A DNA stretch of 64,000 bases, taken from positions 1-64,000 of the forward strand of contig NZ_JAEPNI010000002.1 in NCBI RefSeq assembly GCF_017643475.1. The letters run 5' to 3'. Every line of letters begins with the position of its first letter. The stretch's first letter is position 1. Both the position numbers and the translations under genes were made by a program. Of this stretch, positions 14,291-36,802 are shown in pieces. The notes beneath the pieces are model-generated. The model was not told the DNA's origin. It was given only the letters and a program-made list of their open reading frames with translations, and ran no database searches. This stretch comes from Maricaulis sp. (GTDB lineage: Bacteria > Pseudomonadota > Alphaproteobacteria > Caulobacterales > Maricaulaceae).

Positions 14291-14366
14291 GCCGGCTTAG
14301 CTCAGCTGGTAGAGCATCTGATTTGTAATCAGAGGGTCGGGGGTTCGAGTCCCTCAGCCGGCACCA
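14291..14366 (+). tRNA. tRNA-Thr (anticodon TGT), island attachment target
   Basis: 76 nt beginning GCCGGCTTAGCTCAGCTGG, with anticodon loop TTTGTAA, T-loop TTCGAGT and encoded CCA. Acceptor arms GCCGGCT/AGCCGGC pair. Its last 46 nt recur exactly at 23347-23392, so the 3' half now present was supplied or recreated by an integrated element. Confidence 0.97.
14321..14366 (+). repeat. att direct repeat, tRNA-proximal end of the island
   Basis: A 46-bp segment from the anticodon loop (ATTTGTAATC) to the CCA end (GGCACCA) is identical to 23347-23392. This is the usual footprint of a tyrosine integrase using a tRNA 3' end as attB. Confidence 0.95.
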
Positions 14367-14694
14367 TTTTTCTATAACATTTCAATGAGATATACAGCGA
14401 ATGCCATTCGTTGTTTTCGTGGACTTTGGATTTGGAAGCATATTGGAAGCAATAGGAACAGATCTGTTAGACCCAAAACCCACCCCCGAAATGCGCTTTG
14501 GCGAAAAAAGAGCTCTGCCAATTGAACTATTCACATCGGTGGTTCAACCCGCCCCACCAGAAATTTCTATGGCGCACAACAACTTAAGATGCTCGAGAAA
14601 ACGTTCCAGCCTGGATGCAAGGACCTTGGGCATATCGCAACTGATAAGCGATATTGAGCCCGAGTGACTTCATCATGCTTCTAGACGTTGCGCC
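14367..14694. other. Left end of the island, no credible gene
   Basis: About 330 bp between the tRNA-Thr CCA and the stop of the STAND gene. It is AT-richer than the host DNA and contains the arm-type repeat at 14429-14451. An 88-codon plus-strand frame at 14401-14667 runs through that repeat and has no recognisable domain or good ribosome site, so I do not call it a gene. Confidence 0.6.
14429..14451 (+). repeat. Putative integrase arm-type site, left end
   Basis: Two TTGGAAGCA copies spaced 11 bp apart within a 23-bp sequence that recurs exactly, in the same orientation, at 23194-23216 near the other end. Paired short direct repeats just inside both att sites are what arm-type binding sites of tyrosine integrases look like. 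Confidence 0.7.
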
Positions 14695-17600
14695 CTAAAT
14701 CACTTCAGACGGTTTCTCGGAGATGTCGCGTGTTACAGCGACCACCATCTTACCGTCAGCAAGACCGTCGCTTACCGCCTCACACTTTTCTACAACTAAT
14801 GCGACGAGGCCTTCGAAGTTCACCCGGTTGCCGCCGACCGCCTTGCGGAAAGCACTTCTTTTTATCTCATTCGTTTTTTTGTCCCTCACTACCTTCCTGG
14901 GGCGCGACGCGTTAACGAGCACATATATGCCAGTATGAGATGAATTCTCGAATAGATACTGATTTGAGAGCTGCTCATCAGGAGTGTTGACCAATTCATC
15001 TCCATTCCAATGCTTCATATCCGCAAGCTTGATTTCTATTGAAACATTCCCTAACCCAGCTTCCCTCGAATGCAGCCGCAGGTCAGGCCGCTTTTCACCG
15101 GCCACTTCTTGCTCTCTGATGACCGTATAATAGCGCTCTCCTACTTCTCTGAGGCGCCCAGCCAACCAATTTCGTAAATCGCCTTCCATCGCTTCGCCAC
15201 GGCGGAAAAATGCGCTTTCATCGTCATCCGACGTGTGCAGCTTTTCGAGAAGCGTCTCCAAGTGCGCTTGGCACAGTTTTCTGAACTCCGCTGTAGTTGC
15301 GGGCGGCTTGGAGTGCTCGTTTAAAAATTTGGTACACTCATCGGGGGTGAGCTCAGGCCTTCTTCCGGCCCCTCGCTTCATGACCTCGATCTGATACAAA
15401 AACTGATCACGATGCTTCGAAAGTTCCTTTAAATTCGATAATCTTTCGAAGGCACTGACGCCATCAGGCGTTAGACAAGCCGCCAAGAGATTGGTGTAAC
15501 TGCGCCGGTTAGACTCGGCGTGGTCCTCTTTTCCTGGCGAATAAACATCTTCGTGTCTGACATCATACTCGGGCGGCCATGCCAAGAATGACGCACGGAT
15601 CAACCACTCCAGCAAGTCTTCATCACGCTCGAATTCCTTGCGGATATCTCCTGTTTCACTCTGGAAAATCGGTCTATTTTCTTCCCGTGCCAGGTATTCG
15701 AAGAAGAGCCCCTTCTGCCATCTTTGATCTAACTCGCCAAACGTTGCAGCGAGAACGTTTTTTGCTGCGCTGGAGTTAGCGTGCATCAACCCATCCAGCC
15801 ATGCCCAAGCCTCGCGGAAATCGAAACAAGTCCTTGCCGCGCGGTAGCCCGAGGCCAAAAACCTAGAAATCTGATTTCGTTCAACAGTCGAAGCGCGAGC
15901 GACGATGTCGAGGCAAAGCGCCCTATCGCGACGGTTTCTAGGAGTATGACGCATGAGCATACGTAAAAGCATCGGCGCCACCAGGTTTCTGATTACTGGA
16001 CCAGAGTACGCTATTTTGCTTACGCAATCCGACGCATGATGGTCATCCTCACCTCGCTCGGTGTCAAAGTCTGCTAGTAGGGCAATCTTTATCTCCGAGC
16101 AAAATTGGCTTGGGAAACTTCTTGCTAAGCCCTCAACCCAATCTGGAAAGCCGCTCAATTCGTGAAATGCGTATCGGAAGGCTTTTTTTGCCAACTCAGC
16201 GTCATTCGGCAACTCTCCAAGTGCGTGATCCAAATTGACGCCCGCTAAGCCGATGTGGCCAAGATATGTTTGCCTATCTGTGTAGCTCGTATCATGGACC
16301 GTCCAGAATTTCCGCAGGCCGTCGCTAAATAGCTGTGCAATTTCAGCGTCGTATGCCTCCCCTATGGCGCGGACCGTTCCAGGCCCAAGATCATTTGGAG
16401 CCATCTCGAAAAGCCAACGCGCATTGCCGTTGTCGAACTCCCCGGAAGCGATACCCTTGCGGTTATTCGTGAAGAATTTTCGGTTTTTTTGGGCAGCCAT
16501 CCAAGATTGAACGGCTTCTTTCCTGCGCCGAAGCCACGTTTTTGCGGCATAGAAGTATCGGTACTGGACGCGTGACCTTGCTTGTAAAAACCAAGCGCTA
16601 ACACCGAATTGCCGCCGCTGCTCGACGTCTCCATATTTCTTCAGACATCGGTTGAACACATCCGACGCGTTACCGCGCTCGCCTCTAGGGAGTCGGTTTA
16701 GAATGCGTCTTGCCAGATCAAGTAGGAACGCTCGCTCGCTTTGATCGAGAGTGATTGATGCGTGCTCGCAATAGTGAGACACATCGAATTCGTCAAAAAC
16801 GTCTCCACAATTCTCCGTATCATCGAACTTTATGGGGTCGATCACCCTGAATGGGACACGGTGTCGCTGAGCTTCGTCCGCAAAAAGAGCTATTCGTCGC
16901 TGAATAAGAGCGTGTTTGACAGCCGCTCTAGCCTGGAGGCGGCTCGCCAGTTGCTTAGTAGGTTCTCCGCGAACAAAGATGTCAATCCGGTCGTTCTTGA
17001 CCATCGCCAGCTCAACGGCATTCAGCAAATCTTCGTCGTCAGGACGCACTTCCTCATCAATCAACAACTCCGATGCTAGATAGATAATGGCAGGCACAAA
17101 CCTTCTATACCGAGCCGACACAATGGGCATTCGGTCCTGGTTCTCGGATCGGCCAGTAAGTGCAAAGCGCAGCAGTATTGAAAGCCAGATTTGCTTTTGT
17201 GGCCTGGGCTGGCCTTCAAGTATTTCTATCAAATACTGCGATGTCGCAGATGAGTAGTTTGAACGTTCTCGTCGGATTCTCGCGAGAAATGCTATCCTGT
17301 CGAGTATCGTTGCTTGGTCGAGGCTGTACTTCAATGCCTTCAGCTGGAACATGTTCCAGTTCGGCGCAGAATCGGCATCCTCAGGTTCGGGAAGTGTGGC
17401 CAACAGGGCTTTTGACAGTACACCAACTTGAAAAGATCGATCTCCTATCTCTTCAAGGGCGGCACACGCCTCCGCTTTGCTATGATTGCTAATTGCCGGA
17501 TCTTCCACATAGCCGGCCAGCTTGTGCGCAAGCGGAACCATGTGACCGAAGCCAGCGACCTTGATCAAGAAGTCGGTCAACTCGGGAGAGTGTGATTTGT

Positions 17601-19068
17601 CCAAGAGTTCATCAACGACTGTCGACAACTCAGAGTGAGCGAAGCGCTCGACGTCTTCGTTGCGGAACCACTCGCCTCTATATCGCAGGGAGTCGTAGAG
17701 CCGCGCTTGGTTGCGTAGTATGATCTCCTTGTCTCCAACGGATAGTGATTTCGGATCACCCGTTTCGATCAGGAGAGCTGGCCTGATTTCCGCAACGACC
17801 GCTTTTGCCGAGCCGTTCAAAGCAGCCAACCAGCCCATGACACGCTCTGTCGATTGAGGGATGGATCGCCCTCCCAACCCTTCGGCAATTAGCGGTGCGA
17901 TCGTTTCTTGCGAATGCGCCCTAGCCCTCAAGCTTTCATCGAAATGCTTTGCTGCCAGAAAGTCCCGAATTTCCCGATGCGTGAACCTGATGCGCCCCCC
18001 TATCGACGGCTGAAACAACCCGCAAGCGAGCAGTTGGCGAACCTCTGACGCAGTCCAAGCATCCACATCTGTTGAGAGGATGCGCGCTGCATTCGCGGCT
18101 TCGGCTGCCGCTAGTGGATGGACCGAAAAATCCTGCTGGCCTGACACAACCGCGAAGGCCGCCAATTTTGCTACAGCCTTGCGTGCACGGTTAACATCAA
18201 TGTTCAACTGATCCTTGCTTTCGGAGCGCCCCGACAAACGCCACTCTACCAAGTCATCGATGACTTGAAGTCTCGATTTGAAAATCTCTTCCGGAGCACG
18301 GCCTCCGTCTAAGGCCTTTTTCCAGACATCAAAGAACATGTGCGCGTCCAGCGGCTGCTGGATTAGACCGGTTGATAGATGGGTGTTTACGGCTGAGATG
18401 AAAGCTGAAGGTTCCACACCGCGAGATGTTGCGAGTTTTTCAATGTCTGGAGCCGTCAACGGCGCGAGGCGATAGATCTTCTGGGTCGGTTCTCCTTGAG
18501 TCGGATCCTGTTTGGCGCCCCTTGTCTTCCTTATGAAACTAGCCAAACGCGCTAAGTCACCATCTCCCAGCCATTCGCTCGGGCGACTAGTGACCAAAAC
18601 ATGTAGCGGTCCCTGTCGGCGCCCAATCTCTCGCGCGACTACGTCGAGCGCTTTCTCCAACGCGCTTTCATTTCGGGAAGACGGTAGCCGCGCTTCATCG
18701 AGTGCATCAAAAAATAGAAATCCGCCTTTTCTTGAGCGGTTCCACTTCGCGAAATCCTCCGCTTGATTTTCCAACGCGAAATCGAACGAGTCGCTCACAG
18801 TGCCACCTTGCAGCTCTTCCAAGCGCATCAGGAATGCATCTTGTCCCGCCTCTGTGAGACGCCGCACCTGCTCACGAACCTCGGTTGTTTTGCCCGAGCC
18901 TGCAGTGCCAAGGAGAACAGAGACATCGTGCTTGAGAATTTCGTCCCAAGAATTTCCGGTTTCGCGGTTCGAAAGAGTAGCCCAGATACTATCCTGTTCA
19001 GCACCAAAGTCTGCAAATTGGATATCGACGAAGCGTCGTGACAAAGAAACGTACTGGCCGTTTTTCAC
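14695..19068 (-). CDS. STAND-class NTPase with C-terminal PD-(D/E)XK nuclease, putative antiviral protein
   Basis: 1457 aa from GTG 19068, which has AGGGGG 5 nt upstream; a frame open to 19185 is less likely because it would cross the inverted repeat. Order seen: short N terminus; NACHT/STAND-type NTPase with Walker A GTAGSGKTTE near residue 54, Walker B FLFFDALDEAR near 121, and LVTSRPSEW; a winged-helix-like part with FTHREIRDFLAAKHF; then about 800 residues of helical, probably repeat-forming, sequence; finally a restriction-like core with RPDLRL (Asp about 1329), SIEIKL (Glu 1345, Lys 1347) and EQLSNQY. Known Avs-type STAND proteins sense phage proteins through C-terminal repeats and usually carry the effector at the N terminus; here the nuclease is at the C terminus. 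Function as a phage-triggered nuclease is inference from architecture and island location. Confidence 0.82.
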   Translation of the reverse strand: MKNGQYVSLSRRFVDIQFADFGAEQDSIWATLSNRETGNSWDEILKHDVSVLLGTAGSGKTTEVREQVRRLTEAGQDAFLMRLEELQGGTVSDSFDFALENQAEDFAKWNRSRKGGFLFFDALDEARLPSSRNESALEKALDVVAREIGRRQGPLHVLVTSRPSEWLGDGDLARLASFIRKTRGAKQDPTQGEPTQKIYRLAPLTAPDIEKLATSRGVEPSAFISAVNTHLSTGLIQQPLDAHMFFDVWKKALDGGRAPEEIFKSRLQVIDDLVEWRLSGRSESKDQLNIDVNRARKAVAKLAAFAVVSGQQDFSVHPLAAAEAANAARILSTDVDAWTASEVRQLLACGLFQPSIGGRIRFTHREIRDFLAAKHFDESLRARAHSQETIAPLIAEGLGGRSIPQSTERVMGWLAALNGSAKAVVAEIRPALLIETGDPKSLSVGDKEIILRNQARLYDSLRYRGEWFRNEDVERFAHSELSTVVDELLDKSHSPELTDFLIKVAGFGHMVPLAHKLAGYVEDPAISNHSKAEACAALEEIGDRSFQVGVLSKALLATLPEPEDADSAPNWNMFQLKALKYSLDQATILDRIAFLARIRRERSNYSSATSQYLIEILEGQPRPQKQIWLSILLRFALTGRSENQDRMPIVSARYRRFVPAIIYLASELLIDEEVRPDDEDLLNAVELAMVKNDRIDIFVRGEPTKQLASRLQARAAVKHALIQRRIALFADEAQRHRVPFRVIDPIKFDDTENCGDVFDEFDVSHYCEHASITLDQSERAFLLDLARRILNRLPRGERGNASDVFNRCLKKYGDVEQRRQFGVSAWFLQARSRVQYRYFYAAKTWLRRRKEAVQSWMAAQKNRKFFTNNRKGIASGEFDNGNARWLFEMAPNDLGPGTVRAIGEAYDAEIAQLFSDGLRKFWTVHDTSYTDRQTYLGHIGLAGVNLDHALGELPNDAELAKKAFRYAFHELSGFPDWVEGLARSFPSQFCSEIKIALLADFDTERGEDDHHASDCVSKIAYSGPVIRNLVAPMLLRMLMRHTPRNRRDRALCLDIVARASTVERNQISRFLASGYRAARTCFDFREAWAWLDGLMHANSSAAKNVLAATFGELDQRWQKGLFFEYLAREENRPIFQSETGDIRKEFERDEDLLEWLIRASFLAWPPEYDVRHEDVYSPGKEDHAESNRRSYTNLLAACLTPDGVSAFERLSNLKELSKHRDQFLYQIEVMKRGAGRRPELTPDECTKFLNEHSKPPATTAEFRKLCQAHLETLLEKLHTSDDDESAFFRRGEAMEGDLRNWLAGRLREVGERYYTVIREQEVAGEKRPDLRLHSREAGLGNVSIEIKLADMKHWNGDELVNTPDEQLSNQYLFENSSHTGIYVLVNASRPRKVVRDKKTNEIKRSAFRKAVGGNRVNFEGLVALVVEKCEAVSDGLADGKMVVAVTRDISEKPSEVI

Positions 19069-19073
19069 AGAGA

Positions 19074-19108
19074 CCCCCTGATACAATCTGACGAAGGGTA
19101 TCAGGGGG
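19074..19108 (-). promoter_or_regulatory. Perfect inverted repeat covering the ribosome site of the STAND gene
   Basis: Perfect 11-bp arms CCCCCTGATAC/GTATCAGGGGG with a 13-nt loop. In the STAND mRNA the 3' arm contains the AGGGGG ribosome site, 5 nt from the GTG. It could fold and hide that site, or act as a DNA operator for a dimeric repressor. No U tract follows, so a terminator is unlikely. Confidence 0.6.
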
Positions 19109-19217
19109 ATTACATGCGCACCACCTGGAGTGGTAGGGAAACCATCGTTTTCAACAAGGTTCAGCGTGATTGATAATGGGGGCAAAATCCAACACCTGAC
19201 AAACCCTCATTCGACGC

Positions 19218-20360
19218 CTAACAGCCATACCGAGCTTCAAACTCACCGCCCCGCCGAACCAGGAACGCGCCCGCTCCCTCAACTTTTCCAGCCAACGCCG
19301 CTTCGACGTCTAATCCCACCTGCTTGAGAACTGTCGGCAAATCACCCTCGTTGAGCCCATAAGCCGCCGCTTGCGCGAGCACCAATCCGACTGTTTGCGC
19401 TTCAAGCGTCCGCAAATTCGCAGCTTTCAGCTCCGCGATGATCCGCGACACGTCAACATCGCTATCGTGATCGAGCGAAATTCGCTCCAATTCACGCTGG
19501 CAAACATCCCAAATACGAGCGTTTGGCCAGCGCGCTCTATTCGTGTCCGAACTCGGTTCGGCCAAACGCGTCTGGAAGGCGAGCTTCCGAAAGATATGGG
19601 CGGGGTTTCTCGTGAACGCTTCCCAGGTTCGCCGCCTGAGGAGCGCGTCAATCGCCTTACGGCCTGCCCGGAATTCGAACCTCCAAATTTCTGAGTCTTT
19701 CGACAGAGCAACACCGGCTTCGCTCGCGCGCTTCTCCCAGATCTCCCACCAATAAGGTCTACGCTTGTCGATCACCTCGCGCCGCTTGTCGTAGATGCAG
19801 ATTTCAGCATTGGGCATTTTGCCGATCAGGATGCCATTCGTGACGGTGCCTCTCTGTTTTTGCGAGAACTCGCCTGAGATCGACTTGGTGCGCCGCGCGT
19901 GGCTCACAAAGTTTTCGGGTTCAATTGAGAATCCCGGCAGCAGGAAGTCCAAAGCGTAGTCGAGGCGGGATATGCGCCTGTCCACCTCTTCGAACGTCAT
20001 GCCCAGGTCGGTCAGAAACTGGTCCATCGCTTGTTTGACATGTTCGATGCCATGAACCGCCAATGGCAGCGCTCTGGAAGAAGCGCGAACGCCCCAGGGA
20101 TCACGGGCCGTGCGCGGCTCCTTGAACCACCAATTCGCACCGAGCTCGCCTGTATCGACCGAGTAAGCATAACCGCCTCGACCACCATGCCCCTCGACCA
20201 TGAAGGTGTGGCCGCCAAATGTAACCGGCTGCGCTCTCCTCTCCTCCATCGCCGCCACTTTGGCAACAGCCAGGACCTTTTGAAGGTCGGCGCCAATCTG
20301 CGTGTTGTAAGCGAGGTCGAAATTGTCAAAGCCCGCATGAAGTAGGATTGGATCATTCAT
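19218..20360 (-). CDS. Replication initiation protein, Rep_trans-like
   Basis: 380 aa, with a strong AGGAGAT ribosome site. It resembles plasmid and phage replication initiation factors (Rep_trans/RstA type): the segment RRISRLDYALDFLLPGFSIE matches their S-R-x-D-x-A-x-D core, followed by AEICIYDKRREVIDKRRPYWW and IWRFEFRAGRKAIDALL, which fits the conserved Tyr-Asp-Lys and Arg-x-Glu positions of these enzymes. Such proteins nick one strand and start rolling-circle replication. In this element it would allow copying of the excised circle. Family assignment is from motifs only. Confidence 0.65.
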   Translation of the reverse strand: MNDPILLHAGFDNFDLAYNTQIGADLQKVLAVAKVAAMEERRAQPVTFGGHTFMVEGHGGRGGYAYSVDTGELGANWWFKEPRTARDPWGVRASSRALPLAVHGIEHVKQAMDQFLTDLGMTFEEVDRRISRLDYALDFLLPGFSIEPENFVSHARRTKSISGEFSQKQRGTVTNGILIGKMPNAEICIYDKRREVIDKRRPYWWEIWEKRASEAGVALSKDSEIWRFEFRAGRKAIDALLRRRTWEAFTRNPAHIFRKLAFQTRLAEPSSDTNRARWPNARIWDVCQRELERISLDHDSDVDVSRIIAELKAANLRTLEAQTVGLVLAQAAAYGLNEGDLPTVLKQVGLDVEAALAGKVEGAGAFLVRRGGEFEARYGC

Positions 20361-20378
20361 GAGATTATCTCCTGTATG

Positions 20379-20413
20379 CCCAGAGAGGGGTGATACATGG
20401 ACCCCTCTCTGGG
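20379..20413. repeat. Perfect 13-bp inverted repeat upstream of the Rep gene
   Basis: Arms CCCAGAGAGGGGT/ACCCCTCTCTGGG with a 9-nt loop, between the DUF736 stop and the Rep start (first arm 19 bp before the ATG). Possible roles are the nicking origin of the adjacent Rep, a rep operator, or attenuation of the DUF736 transcript. No U tract on either side. Confidence 0.6.
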
Positions 20414-20423
20414 TCGTCTGGCG

Positions 20424-20780
20424 TTAAGCGGCTTGTTCCTGGCGGCGGCGCCAGGTTGCGTTTGCGGTTTCGCCATCCTTGAAGACGGCGAAATTGAGTG
20501 GGTGCGAAAAGCTTGGGTCGTCGAGCGTGACGGAGAGAAAAGTCTCGCCAGCGTTCGGCCCGCGATTGAGCGTCTTTGTCCAGGCGCTACCCAGCTCCAT
20601 GTGATCGCCTTCGGCATCTCGCATGAACACACGGTGGGTAGGTGCGCCCGGGGATATCGGTGTGCCCACAATAATGGCGATACGAATTTCGCCCTTGAAG
20701 GATAGTGTGCGGATTTCTCCGCGAAGGTCCGACCAGAAATCGCCGGGACCAGTTTGTTTGAGTGTGCCTATCTTAGACAT
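20424..20780 (-). CDS. DUF736 family protein
   Basis: 118 aa. It opens MSKIGTLKQTGPGDFWSDLR and contains IRTLSFKGEIRIAII and LGSAWTKTLNRG, characteristic of DUF736, small proteins common on alphaproteobacterial plasmids and conjugative elements. Their biochemical role is not established; the beta-rich sequence beside a replication gene allows a single-strand-DNA-binding role, which is speculation. GGGAGAC precedes the ATG. Confidence 0.75.
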   Translation of the reverse strand: MSKIGTLKQTGPGDFWSDLRGEIRTLSFKGEIRIAIIVGTPISPGAPTHRVFMRDAEGDHMELGSAWTKTLNRGPNAGETFLSVTLDDPSFSHPLNFAVFKDGETANATWRRRQEQAA

Positions 20781-20825
20781 TTGAAGTCTCCCAAATTTGA
20801 GAATGAAATGCGCGCTTCGCGCAGA

Positions 20826-20934
20826 GATCCCTTTTGTTTTTGGAAAGCAGACGCACCTCTCCCGTTGAGGCCGGAGCTTCGCTCCGGCCCCTTTCGGGAG
20901 CTGTTGCTCTCCAAAAATCCCTGGCGTCGGGATC
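20826..20934. repeat. 109-nt nested inverted repeat (origin, operator or structured RNA)
   Basis: Four concentric pairings: GATCCC (20826-20831) with GGGATC (20929-20934); TTTTTGGAAAGCA (20837-20849) with TGCTCTCCAAAAA (20905-20917), one mismatch; CTCCCG (20859-20864) with CGGGAG (20895-20900); and a terminal hairpin GGCCGGAGC-TTC-GCTCCGGCC (20869-20889). It fills the gap between the HTH gene and DUF736. Such nesting is unusual for plain spacer and suggests a replication origin or structured leader. Confidence 0.65.
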
Positions 20935-20957
20935 AGCTTCGCCAGGGCAAAAACGGG

Positions 20958-21185
20958 TTAGCGGAGGATGCCGAGATCAGAGGTCGATCGGCGTGTCCGC
21001 CGTTCGGCCCAGTCCAGCAGATCGCTCATGCGATAGCGGATGCAGCGCGCCGAAATCTTCACGAATTTCGGGCCGCTGCCGCGAGTGCGCCAATTGCGCA
21101 AGGTGCGCTCAGAAAGAGCGAGGAAATCAGCGGCCGACTTTTCATCGACCAATGCGCGGGGATCTTTCCCGTCGAGTACAGCCAT
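20958..21185 (-). CDS. AlpA-like helix-turn-helix protein (excisionase or regulator)
   Basis: 75 aa with a MerR/AlpA-type winged helix: LVDEKSAADFLALSERTLRN, then WRTRGSGPKFVKI and IRYRMSDLLDWAERR. Proteins of this kind control integrase expression or act as excision factors in tRNA-borne elements. GAGGGGG lies before the ATG. It lies between the integrase pair and the replication genes, with the 109-nt nested inverted repeat just downstream. Confidence 0.8.
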   Translation of the reverse strand: MAVLDGKDPRALVDEKSAADFLALSERTLRNWRTRGSGPKFVKISARCIRYRMSDLLDWAERRTRRSTSDLGILR

Positions 21186-21305
21186 GTCGGCCCCCTCTAG
21201 CTGCGGCGCCGTCTGCGCCAGATGACACCAAGCTAAAGGGCGATGACCCGATGCTCACGGGTCGCGGCGGGGACTTTTTTTGCCCGCCCACGAACCGAAG
21301 CGATC

Positions 21306-21986
21306 CTATTGTTTCATTGTTATTTTTTTCATTTGAGAAAAGACACTCGACCTGTCCAGCATCGGATCGACAATCCGGCACACGAAGCAGGTGAACTGCG
21401 TTGCTTTGTTCCCCGGGGCTCCCGCCCCTTCATTCCAATATGGAGCAAAAGCTTCAGCGCCAGGCGCGTCAGACCGTTCGATCCAGTAGTTCCCAATATT
21501 TGCCAGCATGAGCCGCAGACCGGGATTTTTGGGCCACTCGGGAATCCTGGGACGAGGCGAAAAATCAAGCTGAGCCTCGATCTGGTCAGCCGCTTCTTCC
21601 AACAACTCCAACACTTCATGACCGCGCAGGCCCACGGCTACATCAACATCGTCCAAATCCGATAGAGCTTTTACGTCTCGTAACCTCGCGAGATGGTCGA
21701 GCCTAGAAAGGATATTTCGACCCGCTAGTGAATCAGGATCACGCAAGTAGCTCAGGGTTTTCCGTAAGGAGAGGAAAACCTTGTTGGCATTCCGAGCATG
21801 ATCCTTCATGGGGGACACCAAGTCCCTGCTATTCGTGTCGTAATAGACGTCAGCCCATACTTGCATTGAACGATGCAAAGCATCCGGATTCGGAATCTCG
21901 AATAGCCTAGCGATCCTTTGAGCCTTTCTCCGGTGGATTTGGACCGGTCCAGGCGAAACGAACGGCCCTTGGACAAAATCGGTCAT
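21306..21986 (-). CDS. Hypothetical protein coupled to the integrase
   Basis: 226 aa of unrecognised family. The ATG overlaps the integrase TGA (ATGA at 21983-21986), so its translation depends on the integrase message. It is soluble, with no signal or membrane segment. The middle is helical and charged (SRLDHLARLRDVKALSDLDD) and includes GHEVLELLEEAADQIEAQLD; the end has CFVCRIVDPMLDRSS. Coupling suggests a role in integration, excision or its control, which is inference only. Confidence 0.65.
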   Translation of the reverse strand: MTDFVQGPFVSPGPVQIHRRKAQRIARLFEIPNPDALHRSMQVWADVYYDTNSRDLVSPMKDHARNANKVFLSLRKTLSYLRDPDSLAGRNILSRLDHLARLRDVKALSDLDDVDVAVGLRGHEVLELLEEAADQIEAQLDFSPRPRIPEWPKNPGLRLMLANIGNYWIERSDAPGAEAFAPYWNEGAGAPGNKATQFTCFVCRIVDPMLDRSSVFSQMKKITMKQ

Positions 21987-23182
21987 GAACCCCTCCGGAA
22001 TTCGACGATGGCATCGTCTTCACTCGATCCATCGTCTGCTAGAAACCCACCAATCAACGCACCCACATCATCCGAAGCGCGGCGCGTCACGGCGTCGGCC
22101 AGGTGTGCATAGCGCGCCGTGGTCTGCGCCTGGGTGTGACCGAGTAGATTTCCGATCATGTGGAGTGAGTGCCCGGCCATCGCGGCGAAAGATGCGTAGG
22201 TGTGCCGAAGGTCGTGGATGCGCACATCCTCAAGCTTGGCTTCCTTACGGATGCGTCGCCATGGTTTTTGAAGGTTTATCGCGTGCTGCCCTTCCACTTC
22301 TCCAACAATGACATATGGGTTTCCTTCAACACGCGGAAGATCAGACAAGACCTTTCGTGCCAACTCGGCCAGCATCACACGGCGCGGTCCTGTTTTGGCA
22401 TCCGGCAGCCAAATCACTTCGCCCCGCACATATGACCATTTCAGAGTTTGGATCTCGGAAAGACGGCAACCGGTGAGCAAAAGCAGGCGATAGGCCGCCG
22501 CGACATGTTCCGTCACCTCCCCAAGTGAAACCACGTGGTCCAGCGTATTCCAGAGGGTCTTGATCTCTTCATGTGAAAGGAAGCGCTCTCGTTTGCGCTC
22601 AGCATACTTCCGCACGTGTCGGGTCGGATTTGAGCCATCAGGCCTAAGTCCCCACACCTCAGCCTGGCTAAACATCTTCGAAATCACCGCCAAGACACGG
22701 TTCGCTTGGTATGGTTTATCGCGAAGTTTGTGGTGCATGTCCGCGATATCGGTTCGAACCACATCTTGGACACGCATCATGCCAAGCTTCGGGCGGATGT
22801 AATTCTTGCAAACCGCCCGGTAATCACGGGCTGTGGTCGCCTTACAGCGAGAGGCCACGTATTCGTCGAGAAAACGGTCGCACAAACTCGAAACTGTCGG
22901 TGCGCGTCGATCTCGCTCAATCTGCCCGGCGGGATCTTCCCCTCGGGCAACCTCTCCCATGGTCTGGCGTGCCAGAGCCCTGGCCTCGTCCGGCGTGATT
23001 GCGCCGTGAACACCCAGGCTCACCCGTTTGGTGCGACCACCAACACGATATTGGACCGTGTAGGTCTTGCGTCCTTTCGGCGAGACGCGCACGCCGAAGC
23101 CGGGAATGAGACTGTCCCATTCAAAGTAGTCGGTCGCCTTGGGAGCCAATGCGTCGACGGAACGTTTCGTGATCTTAGCCAT
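21983..23182 (-). CDS. int: Tyrosine-type site-specific integrase
   Basis: 399 aa of the P4-like group. The N-terminal DUF4102-type arm-binding domain starts MAKITKRSVDALAPKATDYF; a SAM-like core-binding domain follows; the catalytic domain has Arg in TGCRLSEIQ, Lys in DAKTGPRR, the box HDLRHTYAS, the second His in LLGHTQ and nucleophile Tyr358 in ARYAHL. All catalytic residues are present, so it should be active. It lies 165 bp inside the distal att repeat, reading away from it. Confidence 0.95.
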   Translation of the reverse strand: MAKITKRSVDALAPKATDYFEWDSLIPGFGVRVSPKGRKTYTVQYRVGGRTKRVSLGVHGAITPDEARALARQTMGEVARGEDPAGQIERDRRAPTVSSLCDRFLDEYVASRCKATTARDYRAVCKNYIRPKLGMMRVQDVVRTDIADMHHKLRDKPYQANRVLAVISKMFSQAEVWGLRPDGSNPTRHVRKYAERKRERFLSHEEIKTLWNTLDHVVSLGEVTEHVAAAYRLLLLTGCRLSEIQTLKWSYVRGEVIWLPDAKTGPRRVMLAELARKVLSDLPRVEGNPYVIVGEVEGQHAINLQKPWRRIRKEAKLEDVRIHDLRHTYASFAAMAGHSLHMIGNLLGHTQAQTTARYAHLADAVTRRASDDVGALIGGFLADDGSSEDDAIVEFRRGS

Positions 23183-23193
23183 GAGCCATCACC

Positions 23194-23216
23194 GATTTGG
23201 AAGCATATTGGAAGCA
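23194..23216 (+). repeat. Putative integrase arm-type site, right end
   Basis: Exact copy, same orientation, of 14429-14451, with two TTGGAAGCA units. It lies 11 bp upstream of the integrase ATG, so binding there could also repress int. Confidence 0.7.
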
Positions 23217-23346
23217 GCAGGGAGCGCTTCAGCGGGTATGCAAGGTGACAACGCGAGTCTAACAGGTCAACAAAAATAATTGAATTCATTAAAGAAATGG
23301 CGCTGTGGAGCCATCGAGAGACAACCCGGGAAATGGCCCGAAATGA

Positions 23347-23392
23347 ATTTGTAATCAGAGGGTCGGGGGTTCGAGTCCCTCAGCCGGCACCA
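23347..23392 (+). repeat. att direct repeat, distal end of the island
   Basis: 46 bp identical to the 3' part of tRNA-Thr (14321-14366), including the CCA. The upstream half of a tRNA is absent, so this copy is not a functional tRNA gene. The serine hydrolase stop codon begins at the next base. Confidence 0.95.
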
Positions 23393-34640: not shown

Positions 34641-34672
34641 CACTCCACGATCACACCCGGTCTGTGAGAAAA

Positions 34673-34727
34673 ATGGTACCGCCTTCCCGGTTCGAACGGG
34701 AGACCTCTAGATCCACAATCTAGCGCT
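34673..34727 (-). repeat. tRNA-His 3' fragment, far att copy of the islet
   Basis: 55 bp matching 36725-36779, the 3' portion of tRNA-His from the anticodon arm to CCA, with two differences (34685 and 34701). The 5' part is missing, so it is not a functional tRNA. The two differences fall on opposite sides of the T-stem and together turn one G-C pair into A-T, so pairing is kept. Confidence 0.9.
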
Positions 34728-34849
34728 GGCACCCCACAACGCACCCCAAGACATGGATTAAACTCAATATTTTCATGCACATAAGAAGAAAATCGAAACA
34801 TCGGAAATACGCCGTCAGGGGACGAATAAGGCCAAAACGGCCCATAGAG

Positions 34850-34869
34850 GGGGCACAAAAAGGGGCACA
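34850..34869 (+). repeat. Paired GGGGCACA repeats, left end of the islet
   Basis: GGGGCACA at 34850-34857 and 34862-34869, in the same orientation. The arrangement recurs at 36638-36658. Probable integrase arm-type sites. Confidence 0.6.
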
Positions 34870-35023
34870 ATACCAAACGGATTGACGAGATCGCTTTGCG
34901 CAAAATCAGAATCCGCTAAAGTTGCAAGGTCGTAAAGACCAACTATGGGCAACACAGTGCTGCTCGCGCCTCACTTCAAATGAGTTCCTCCCGATTAATG
35001 CCGATGTCCTCTCTGACTTCCCG

Positions 35024-36580
35024 ATGAAACAGCACATTCTCGACAAAAACCGAAGAGACCGGGCACGCGTGAAAACACGGGAACTCTTAAGAAGCTCAAA
35101 TCCGTATGATTTTTTCAGGCTAATCTGGGCAGTGCGTGGCTTGCAAACTGGCTCCGAGGCCGTTCATGAGAACCAATTCAGAAACGTGCCGCCTGAGGCA
35201 ATTAACGCCGATGTTACAAGCCGATATTACGCTCACCCTTGGCTACTAGAAACGCTGGCGAATGAGTACCTGGTCTCAAACGCGGACCGTCGGTTAGACA
35301 GGGGTGCAACTGATCCTAGCAAGCTGAGTTGGGACTATCTCGCTGAACTAGTGAATTCATTGAAGAACTTAGAGGAGGCGGAGACAGCGATATTTGGCGC
35401 CTTGGACGACGTACTCAGGGAGATCGTCAGAATTAAATACCGCCAATTCCATTGGCAAAGCGGCCTAGTCGTATTCTCCTCCTTGTACAGAAGCCATTAC
35501 CTGCTGAACGCGCCTGAAATTCACGCGAACTTCGAAAAGGAAATGGGGGTTTCGCTGGACCTTTTTGTTCGCTGTTCATTCGGTCTTTGGGCTCTCTCCA
35601 TGTCGAGACCTTCCAACTATCTCACCGCCAGTCTCGAGCGCATTGGCGTCACCCTCGACGACAAAAGAAAAGTCATCTCGAAAATCGGTTACGATTGGCA
35701 GAGCGCCACAAACGAAGCGTCTCGTATTCGAGACGAAGACGGCGAGGTTGCGTACAAGCCCAGCTTGCTCCGAGAGCGTCCGGTTTTGCTACTACCAGGA
35801 CCGCCGACACAGGTGTTTGTCCCGATGGTTGAATTGCTTTTCAACCGATTCACGGGGAACTTGTTCTACGATTGTGTTGTTGGGTCTGATGAATGCCAGA
35901 ATATCTATGCTGAACGGTTCGAAGCTTATTGTCTGAAACTGCTTTGCGCGTCGTTGGATGACAGCGATTGGAGCGGCGAAATCCACTATGGCACGAAGAA
36001 TCGCCCACAGCTAACGCCTGATATTCTCGGCATCAAAGATGGCGATGCTGCCCTCATCGTCGAATGCAAAGCCAAGCGGGTGCCGTTTCGTTTCAAGGCG
36101 GATATCCGAGCTCAAGAGAAACTCGGAGAGTTCATATCAGAATTGGCTTATGGTCAGTATCAAATCTGGAAGTTTGCACATGATGTGCGAACCGGGAAAT
36201 TCAAGAAACCCGAGCTTTTCAATTCCGTCAGCAACGGCGCTGGTCTCGTCGTTACGTTCGAGGATTGGTCGACAACACTGCGAGATTTTCGGGAAACGAT
36301 TAATGACATGGCCAATCAAAAGGCGATCGACAAAGGTGTCGAACTAATCGATGCGGATCGTATTCCTACCTGCTTTGTATGTGTAGAAACTCTGGAAAGG
36401 CTCACATCCTGCGCGGACACAGACTCTCTAGTGGAGAGCATTAAGCGTTATTCAAAGGATTTCGAAGGTTGGGACCTACAGCACGTATGGCGCCGATTGA
36501 ATCCAGATAACAAGACCGATCGCCCTTACGCCTTCATCGATGACCTACAGGAAGTCCTGCCTTGGTTCGATAACCTTTAG
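35024..36580 (+). CDS. PD-(D/E)XK nuclease-fold protein of unknown family, putative defence gene
   Basis: 518 aa from ATG 35024; the open frame extends to a TTG at 34922 (552 aa), and neither start has a clear ribosome site. The N-terminal two thirds is mostly helical without a recognised domain. The C-terminal part has RFEAYCLKLL (candidate motif Glu), TPDILGIKDG (Asp333), ALIVECKAKR (Glu347 and Lys349) and AYGQYQIWKF with a motif-IV-like Gln, the order seen in PD-(D/E)XK nucleases. It is the only gene of the islet. No partner methylase is present. A defence role as a self-contained nuclease is inference from islet location and fold. Confidence 0.75.
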   Translation: MKQHILDKNRRDRARVKTRELLRSSNPYDFFRLIWAVRGLQTGSEAVHENQFRNVPPEAINADVTSRYYAHPWLLETLANEYLVSNADRRLDRGATDPSKLSWDYLAELVNSLKNLEEAETAIFGALDDVLREIVRIKYRQFHWQSGLVVFSSLYRSHYLLNAPEIHANFEKEMGVSLDLFVRCSFGLWALSMSRPSNYLTASLERIGVTLDDKRKVISKIGYDWQSATNEASRIRDEDGEVAYKPSLLRERPVLLLPGPPTQVFVPMVELLFNRFTGNLFYDCVVGSDECQNIYAERFEAYCLKLLCASLDDSDWSGEIHYGTKNRPQLTPDILGIKDGDAALIVECKAKRVPFRFKADIRAQEKLGEFISELAYGQYQIWKFAHDVRTGKFKKPELFNSVSNGAGLVVTFEDWSTTLRDFRETINDMANQKAIDKGVELIDADRIPTCFVCVETLERLTSCADTDSLVESIKRYSKDFEGWDLQHVWRRLNPDNKTDRPYAFIDDLQEVLPWFDNL

Positions 36581-36637
36581 CAAGCGAGACATCGAGCACC
36601 ATTGCCGACGTGAAGCCCGCAATACCTTTCGCGAAAA

Positions 36638-36658
36638 GGGGCACATTTAGGGGGCACA
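36638..36658 (+). repeat. Paired GGGGCACA repeats, right end of the islet
   Basis: GGGGCACA at 36638-36645 and 36651-36658, same orientation as the left pair. They lie about 70 bp from the CCA end of tRNA-His. Confidence 0.6.
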
Positions 36659-36725
36659 ATCGACCAAATCACGGTTTCTGGTGCAACCTAAGGCAAAACA
36701 ACACAATGATTTCATAGAGAAAAAA

Positions 36726-36802
36726 TGGTACCGCCTCCCCGGTTCGAACGGGGGACCTCTAGATCCACAATCTAGCGCTCTAACCAACTGAGCTAAGGCG
36801 GC
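36726..36802 (-). tRNA. tRNA-His (anticodon GTG), islet attachment target
   Basis: 77 nt on the minus strand: GCCGCCTTAGCTCAGTTGG start, anticodon loop TTGTGGA, TTCGAAC T-loop and encoded CCA. The acceptor has G1:U72 and A73, with no encoded G-1, the unusual tRNA-His form known from alphaproteobacteria. Its 3' half is duplicated at 34673-34727. Confidence 0.95.

Follow-up and report, generated by a model that had tools for sequence, protein, structure and literature searches.

Among described elements, those called CIMEs (cis-mobilizable elements) are among the closest to the locus reported here. As set out in the accessible part of one source, CIMEs have lost their integration and transfer genes and kept attL and attR (PMC5704250). 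The available portion of another reports CIMEs of 1.2-13 kb with cargo, by a method that overlooks solitary elements; it also refers to a set of 215 at a single tRNA-Lys site among 303 Streptococcus genomes (PMC7563491). MITEs and CALINs are reviewed, in the extract at hand, as elements moved in trans (PMC11389934). A preliminary reading of our locus, made from its letters alone (the sequence-only reading), had held that minimal non-autonomous elements of this sort are rarely reported. This view does not survive the comparison, at least with what the accessible text of PMC7563491 describes, and the kind to which the locus belongs is therefore not rare.

The locus is an insert at the 3′ end of a tRNA-His gene, referred to below as the islet, in a 64,000-nucleotide stretch of DNA from Maricaulis sp. 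(the window; host genome G000). In our judgment the islet probably derives from a genomic island that was inserted at the tRNA-His 3′ end, and is now a CIME-like element without an integrase.

Layout of the islet

A 59-nt direct repeat (97%) of the tRNA-His 3′ end brackets the 2.05-kb insert, which contains one substantial gene and has a GC content of 0.497, against 0.634 and 0.610 in its 5-kb flanks (Table 1). The initial description of tRNA-His 3′-end repeats around a single AT-richer gene is thus accurate. No tRNA is called at the left copy of the repeat, and the right copy overlaps the intact tRNA-His(gtg). A single T-stem base pair distinguishes the two copies, with both partners changed, and the state seen in the left copy recurs in the left copy of the near relative G002 and in the tRNAs of G004 and G013. 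This paired difference fits an old chromosomal end that was pushed aside and a new end that was brought in: the distal core is probably the old chromosomal tRNA-His 3′ end plus its downstream flank, and the 3′ part of the proximal core was probably brought by the element. A search for sigma-70-like promoters gave none in the islet and 1.2 in shuffled sequence.

Table 1. Coordinates of the islet features and of the islands used for comparison (window positions, except for the G478 island, given on stretch L180).
Feature	Position	Strand	Description
Distal core repeat	34669..34727	.	59 nt; T-stem variant TTCCC/GGGAG on + strand
Putative distal arm pair	34850..34869	+	GGGGCACA-AAAA-GGGGCACA; 122 bp from distal core
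Cargo gene	35024..36580	+	518 codons from ATG; distant GapS1 relative, PD-(D/E)xK nuclease-like
Putative tRNA-side arm pair	36638..36658	+	GGGGCACA-TTTAG-GGGGCACA; 67 bp from tRNA 3′ end
Proximal core repeat	36721..36779	.	mostly within intact tRNA-His; T-stem variant CTCCCC/GGGGG
Intact tRNA-His (gtg)	36726..36802	-	attachment site
tRNA-Thr island	14291-23392		46-bp core repeat at 14321-14366 and 23347-23392
tRNA-Thr island integrase	21983-23182	-	starts 14 bp inside distal pair, reads toward tRNA
G478 tRNA-Leu island (probable)	L180 4696-11734		with integrase

Tandem words at the islet ends

The word GGGGCACA occurs four times at the islet ends, always on the plus strand (34850, 34862, 36638 and 36651), and twice elsewhere in the window, singly and on the other strand. 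A search of the complete 3.26-Mb genome with the pattern GGGGCACA-N0-20-GGGGCACA, controlled by the reversed pattern, located no pairs other than those of the islet ends (reversed control, 0). Random pairs of 200-bp window segments shared a tandem word common to both ends in 2 of about 2000 cases.

Within the order, pairs were present in 11 of 299 genomes (reversed control, 2/299). Outside G000 and with overlaps merged, they form 13 sites: six beyond the 3′ end of a tRNA, at distances of 48-70 bp (three Lys, two Pro and one Met), four at 18-57 bp from an integrase domain and three near neither. A class sample of 385 genomes, which shares five genomes with the order sample, contained pairs in eight genomes including G000 (reversed control, 4/385). 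Its ten sites outside G000 comprise four next to a tRNA, one next to an integrase only and five near neither; one of the four, at a tRNA-Leu of G478, also lies 39 bp from an integrase. For this analysis, tRNAs were called with ARAGORN, and adjacency to an integrase meant a distance within 60 bp, as judged by our own HMM, built from the window integrase plus three others and then iterated.

Order and class together yield 23 sites, not all independent: both ends of the G099 island are among them, as are, probably, both ends of islands in G078 and G129. Ten lie just beyond a tRNA 3′ end, five next to an integrase and eight near neither, one of these eight being the far end of the G478 island, its second pair, 6.7 kb from the first. 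By a rough estimate, the number of such sites expected next to a tRNA by chance is far below one. The resemblance to integrase arms that had been noted for the double repeats is supported by these neighborhoods and by the spacing of complete islands described below, and the paired GGGGCACA words at both islet ends look like integrase arm sites.

A pattern search without control in a collection of species genomes returned 48 stretches, 15 of which lie at 14-115 bp past a tRNA 3′ end, one more at 54 bp from an integrase and 32 near neither; one of them, L149, is the same record as the class site G385. The 15 tRNA-adjacent loci, eight in one orientation and seven in the orientation seen in the islet, belong to Pseudomonadota, Gemmatimonadota, Nitrospirota, Bacteroidota, Acidobacteriota and Firmicutes. 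Of eight viral stretches with GGGGCACA pairs, one lies past a tRNA 3′ end. This recurrence of tandem GGGGCACA beside tRNA 3′ ends and beside tyrosine integrases, across several phyla, points to an arm word in wide use. A literature search with GGGGCACA and TGTGCCCC, weak in that it left many journals uncovered and went by titles, returned no report of GGGGCACA as an integrase arm.

Spacing and orientation relative to complete islands

The window also holds a complete-looking island at a tRNA-Thr gene, with one TTGGAAGCA pair past the tRNA and a second pair near the distal core. It also encodes proteins of 1496 aa, with marginal PADLOC matches only, and of 380 aa, with no such match. In G099, a tRNA-Lys island carries a GGGGCACA pair past the tRNA and, on the distal side, a four-word array with the integrase adjoining it; its 48-bp core repeat recurs at a distance of 26 kb. 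The distances on the tRNA side and on the distal side are 67 and 122 bp in the islet, 65 and 130 bp in the tRNA-Thr island, and 69 and 118 bp in the G099 island. Arm-DNA-bind_3 and Phage_integrase domains are present in the integrases of the tRNA-Thr island, the G099 island and the G478 island. The first two of these integrases sit just inside the distal arms and read toward the tRNA; the cargo gene of the islet has this same side and reading direction.

Relative to the tRNA, the islet words point opposite to those of the tRNA-Thr and G099 islands, a discrepancy that the probable G478 island resolves in part. The integrase of this island is on the tRNA side, where the gap is 106 bp, and the island has only a weak repeat of 45 bp at 87%, most of it downstream of the tRNA. 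On the side away from the integrase, GGGGCACATTTGGGGGCACA lies about 68 bp from the repeat and points outward. The short-gap side of the islet carries GGGGCACATTTAGGGGGCACA, one base longer than GGGGCACATTTGGGGGCACA; this GGGGCACATTTAGGGGGCACA lies 67 bp away and points outward too.

A distant GapS1-like cargo protein

The frame is open from TTG 34922 (552 codons) and more probably starts at ATG 35024, because homologues align from about there. The protein has no match in Pfam or in the 2023 version of PADLOC-DB. NCBIfam returned GapS1 (NF047931) with E=8.4e-13, and GapS1 was the sole match at E<=0.001 for all 11 sequences formed by the cargo protein and ten homologues, which were taken from genomes other than G000, from plasmids and from viral contigs. 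The cargo protein resembles GapS1 in being a single protein, matched over about 370 residues; it differs in scoring 48 bits against a family cut-off of 320 and in having no second gene beside it in the islet. By this measure it is a GapS1 homologue and not a family member. GapS1 itself is an anti-phage protein that reportedly comes from gamma-mobile-trio elements; its original description is cited in PMC12774648.

Homologues were identified in seven other genomes among the 299 of the order, in 23 plasmid records and in three viral contigs; phage records gave none. One viral contig with a GapS1-like gene, L190, is 44 kb long. The cargo protein is present in one of 19 congeneric genomes, and its relatives elsewhere are at most 33% identical. 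Nine stretches of named species genomes fitted the cargo pattern, none of which was confirmed.

Across the 11 sequences, D, E-x-K and a subsequent Q are invariant. The predicted structure (mean pLDDT 63.6) places a core of helix, three strands, helix and strand around E347 and K349. The best entries of a fold search were those of the nickase BspD6I, which we take to be a PD-(D/E)xK enzyme, at a non-significant E of 0.034, followed by unrelated folds. A sequence search of solved structures gave two designed armadillo-repeat proteins (E 6.5e-4 and 0.001) over a short stretch, which were judged irrelevant. The PD-(D/E)xK residues and the GapS1 relationship agree with the original description of a nuclease-like, putative defence gene. 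The cargo gene is probably an anti-phage gene.

Search for an integrase, a helper and a parent element

A PF00589 search of the whole host genome at E 0.001 found no integrase or integrase fragment inside the islet, and our own integrase HMM, applied with filters off to six-frame segments of at least 40 aa, found none there and recovered its positive control. The islet thus has no detectable integrase, as first described. An integrase encoded elsewhere in the genome and using the same arms had also been envisaged; none with GGGGCACA arms was seen in the host genome, which contains no further GGGGCACA pair and hence offers no obvious helper. The tRNA-Thr integrase of the window is an unlikely helper since its own arms are TTGGAAGCA and it targets another tRNA. 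Elsewhere in the host genome, a 15-kb contig carries three adjacent tyrosine-recombinase frames (G000:C9 11602-13946, L069), which resemble a recombinase-in-trio element.

No parent element combining the same arms, tRNA-His and an integrase was found among the pair sites of the 299 order genomes. The tRNA-His locus was recovered in 16 of the 18 other congeneric genomes (not in G007 and G010), and an integrase within 200 kb on the same contig, several contigs being short, was present only in G003. This integrase lies 21 kb from the tRNA-His, with nearby matches to the tRNA at E 0.99 only, and was rejected as a parent. An element of G052 was also considered and discarded because it has no GGGGCACA pair. 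According to the sequence-only reading, the islet would be just a deletion remnant if related strains had a longer element with an integrase here. No such element was found at the 16 congeneric loci, a result that is still compatible with a remnant origin.

Other tRNA-His loci

A second copy of the tRNA-His end, counted at a length of at least 40 bp, an identity of at least 87% and a position on the same contig, was present in 6 of 61 genomes. Five belong to the host family (G000, 2.05 kb; G002, 1.45 kb; G004, 2.87 kb; G014, 18.1 kb; G034, 9.0 kb), and no integrase was detected in their tRNA-His islands. The sixth, G052, belongs to another family of the order; its two tRNA-His-like copies are 58 kb apart and enclose two integrase matches (G052:C2 84274-142855).

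The G002 islet (L041) contains one membrane-protein-like frame without a Pfam or PADLOC match, and the G004 islet (L042) encodes a protein matching a PADLOC TIR effector (6.3e-11) and PF05014 (6.9e-7), along with further frames. Despite their different cargo, the two islets have the word GGGTCGTTNTGGNTCAA in common at the same end. This word occurs in 3 of 299 order genomes; in the third, G293, the 3-kb locus contains no tRNA. Since the reversed control gives more matches than the word, namely five, only the place of the word is telling. No tandem word is common to both ends of either islet, and G002 and G004 were dismissed as users of the G000 arms. A single motif at the left ends of G000, G002 and G004, inverted in G000, was likewise abandoned: the loose pattern misses G000, and its reversed control is commoner (13 against 3 matches in 19 genomes). 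A further G002 pair, 28 bp apart, has no tRNA nearby within its 6-kb stretch.

Eighteen other loci were compared for their flanks. A gene read as an M48 peptidase adjoins the tRNA-His on the right in 16, of which 15 are congeneric; the stretches of G002 and of the left half of G014 end before the position of this gene. The left side is variable, with a gene read as a transglycosylase in many genomes. A block of left-flank genes, whose main frames are 71-89% identical, is common to G000 and G002 and, among the matches listed, occurs in no other locus compared.

Origin of the islet

The best reading is that of a non-autonomous remnant that could be mobile only with a helper. A tyrosine integrase with an N-terminal arm-binding domain (Arm-DNA-bind_3), a type that we assume to belong to the P4-like group, would have recombined the element with the tRNA-His gene, the paired GGGGCACA words serving as its arms. 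In this event the element would have supplied the 3′ end of the rebuilt tRNA, and the displaced original end would survive as the distal repeat. The integrase gene would have been lost, and the GapS1-like nuclease gene occupies the place where it would be expected. Such an islet would be stable alone. For it to be excised or transferred, another element would have to supply the matching integrase, probably along with an excision factor; alternatively, it could be co-transferred once a new element inserts beside it. Weighing against this reading are the missing parent among the pair sites of the order, the opposite orientation of the words to those of the tRNA-Thr and G099 islands, the pair sites near neither a tRNA nor an integrase, the partial dependence among sites, the differences and weak repeat of the G478 island, the G002 and G004 islets without such tandem arms, the low GapS1 score and the non-significant fold matches.

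Alternatively, the islet could have evolved into a minimal hitchhiking unit: a cassette of one gene that retains full arms and cores because it is moved in trans by integrases, either resident or arriving from outside, much as MITEs are by transposases. It does carry arms and cores at both ends, at native spacing, and little else. The five integrase-less tRNA-His islands of the family point the same way, as does the end word that the G002 and G004 islets share despite their different cargo. That word, however, differs from the islet arms and is outnumbered by its reversed control (5 against 3), the islet is known from a single copy, its protein is confined to one congeneric genome with only distant relatives elsewhere, and the host genome has neither a further GGGGCACA pair nor, hence, an obvious helper. 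We regard this origin as unlikely. A broader proposal, in which the tRNA-His of the family is a docking site for minimal integrase-free cassettes that carry one or a few accessory, partly defence-like genes and are kept mobile by the integrases of passing islands reading shared arm words such as tandem GGGGCACA, appears doubtful as well.

If an old insertion in a common ancestor had given rise to both the G000 and the G002 islet, with contents later replaced or deleted differently, this would account for the left-flank block that, among the matches listed, only these two share, and for the T:A state of both left copies and the C:G state of both tRNAs. Their repeats, of 59 bp in G000 and 50 bp in G002, nevertheless do not stop at the same tRNA position, and their cargo and end words differ, which makes a common insertion distinctly improbable. 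Local duplication can give rise to tRNA fragments, and the early reading had allowed for repeats arising by tRNA duplication without mobility. A simple duplication of the tRNA 3′ end without integrase recombination is, however, scarcely credible: the GC content is foreign, each end has tandem words spaced as in complete islands, and the T-stems show a paired difference. The integrase-less derivative of an island remains our preferred explanation.

Implications and comparison with known systems

The islet is real and well preserved, with credible arm sites; it is ordinary in kind and a clean example of it, and its mobility is hypothetical. It offers a very clean case of what appears to be an island cut down to its recombination sites and one probable anti-phage gene, with a complete-looking island of the same architecture, at the tRNA-Thr, in the same window. 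The recurring spacing could help to find islands that have lost their integrase: about 65-70 bp on one side and 118-130 bp on the integrase side for the islet and two complete islands, and 68 and 106 bp for a third. As a by-product, the arm word and its spacing may outweigh the islet itself in usefulness.

Like MITEs and CALINs, as far as the extract available on them goes, the islet would depend on a recombinase encoded elsewhere; unlike it, they belong to other recombination systems, and movement of the islet in trans is hypothetical. With the Arm-DNA-bind_3 islands at the tRNA-Thr, at the tRNA-Lys of G099 and at the tRNA-Leu of G478, it has in common core repeats of a tRNA 3′ end and tandem arm pairs at both ends with similar spacing, and it differs from them in lacking an integrase.

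CIMEs, in the portions of the sources available, share with the islet recombination sites at both ends, the lack of integrase and transfer genes, a small size and cargo, and the tRNA 3′ end is among their reported targets. On sequence alone, the islet has kept core repeats and arm pairs at both ends corresponding to attL and attR, and no integrase was detected in it, its sole substantial gene not being a transfer gene by family match. CIMEs are there defined as decayed ICEs or IMEs; for the islet such a parent is conjectural, and no tandem element was seen beside it. Since its parent may have been an ICE, an IME or a plain island, we do not class the islet as a CIME proper; it looks like a CIME and would work like one.
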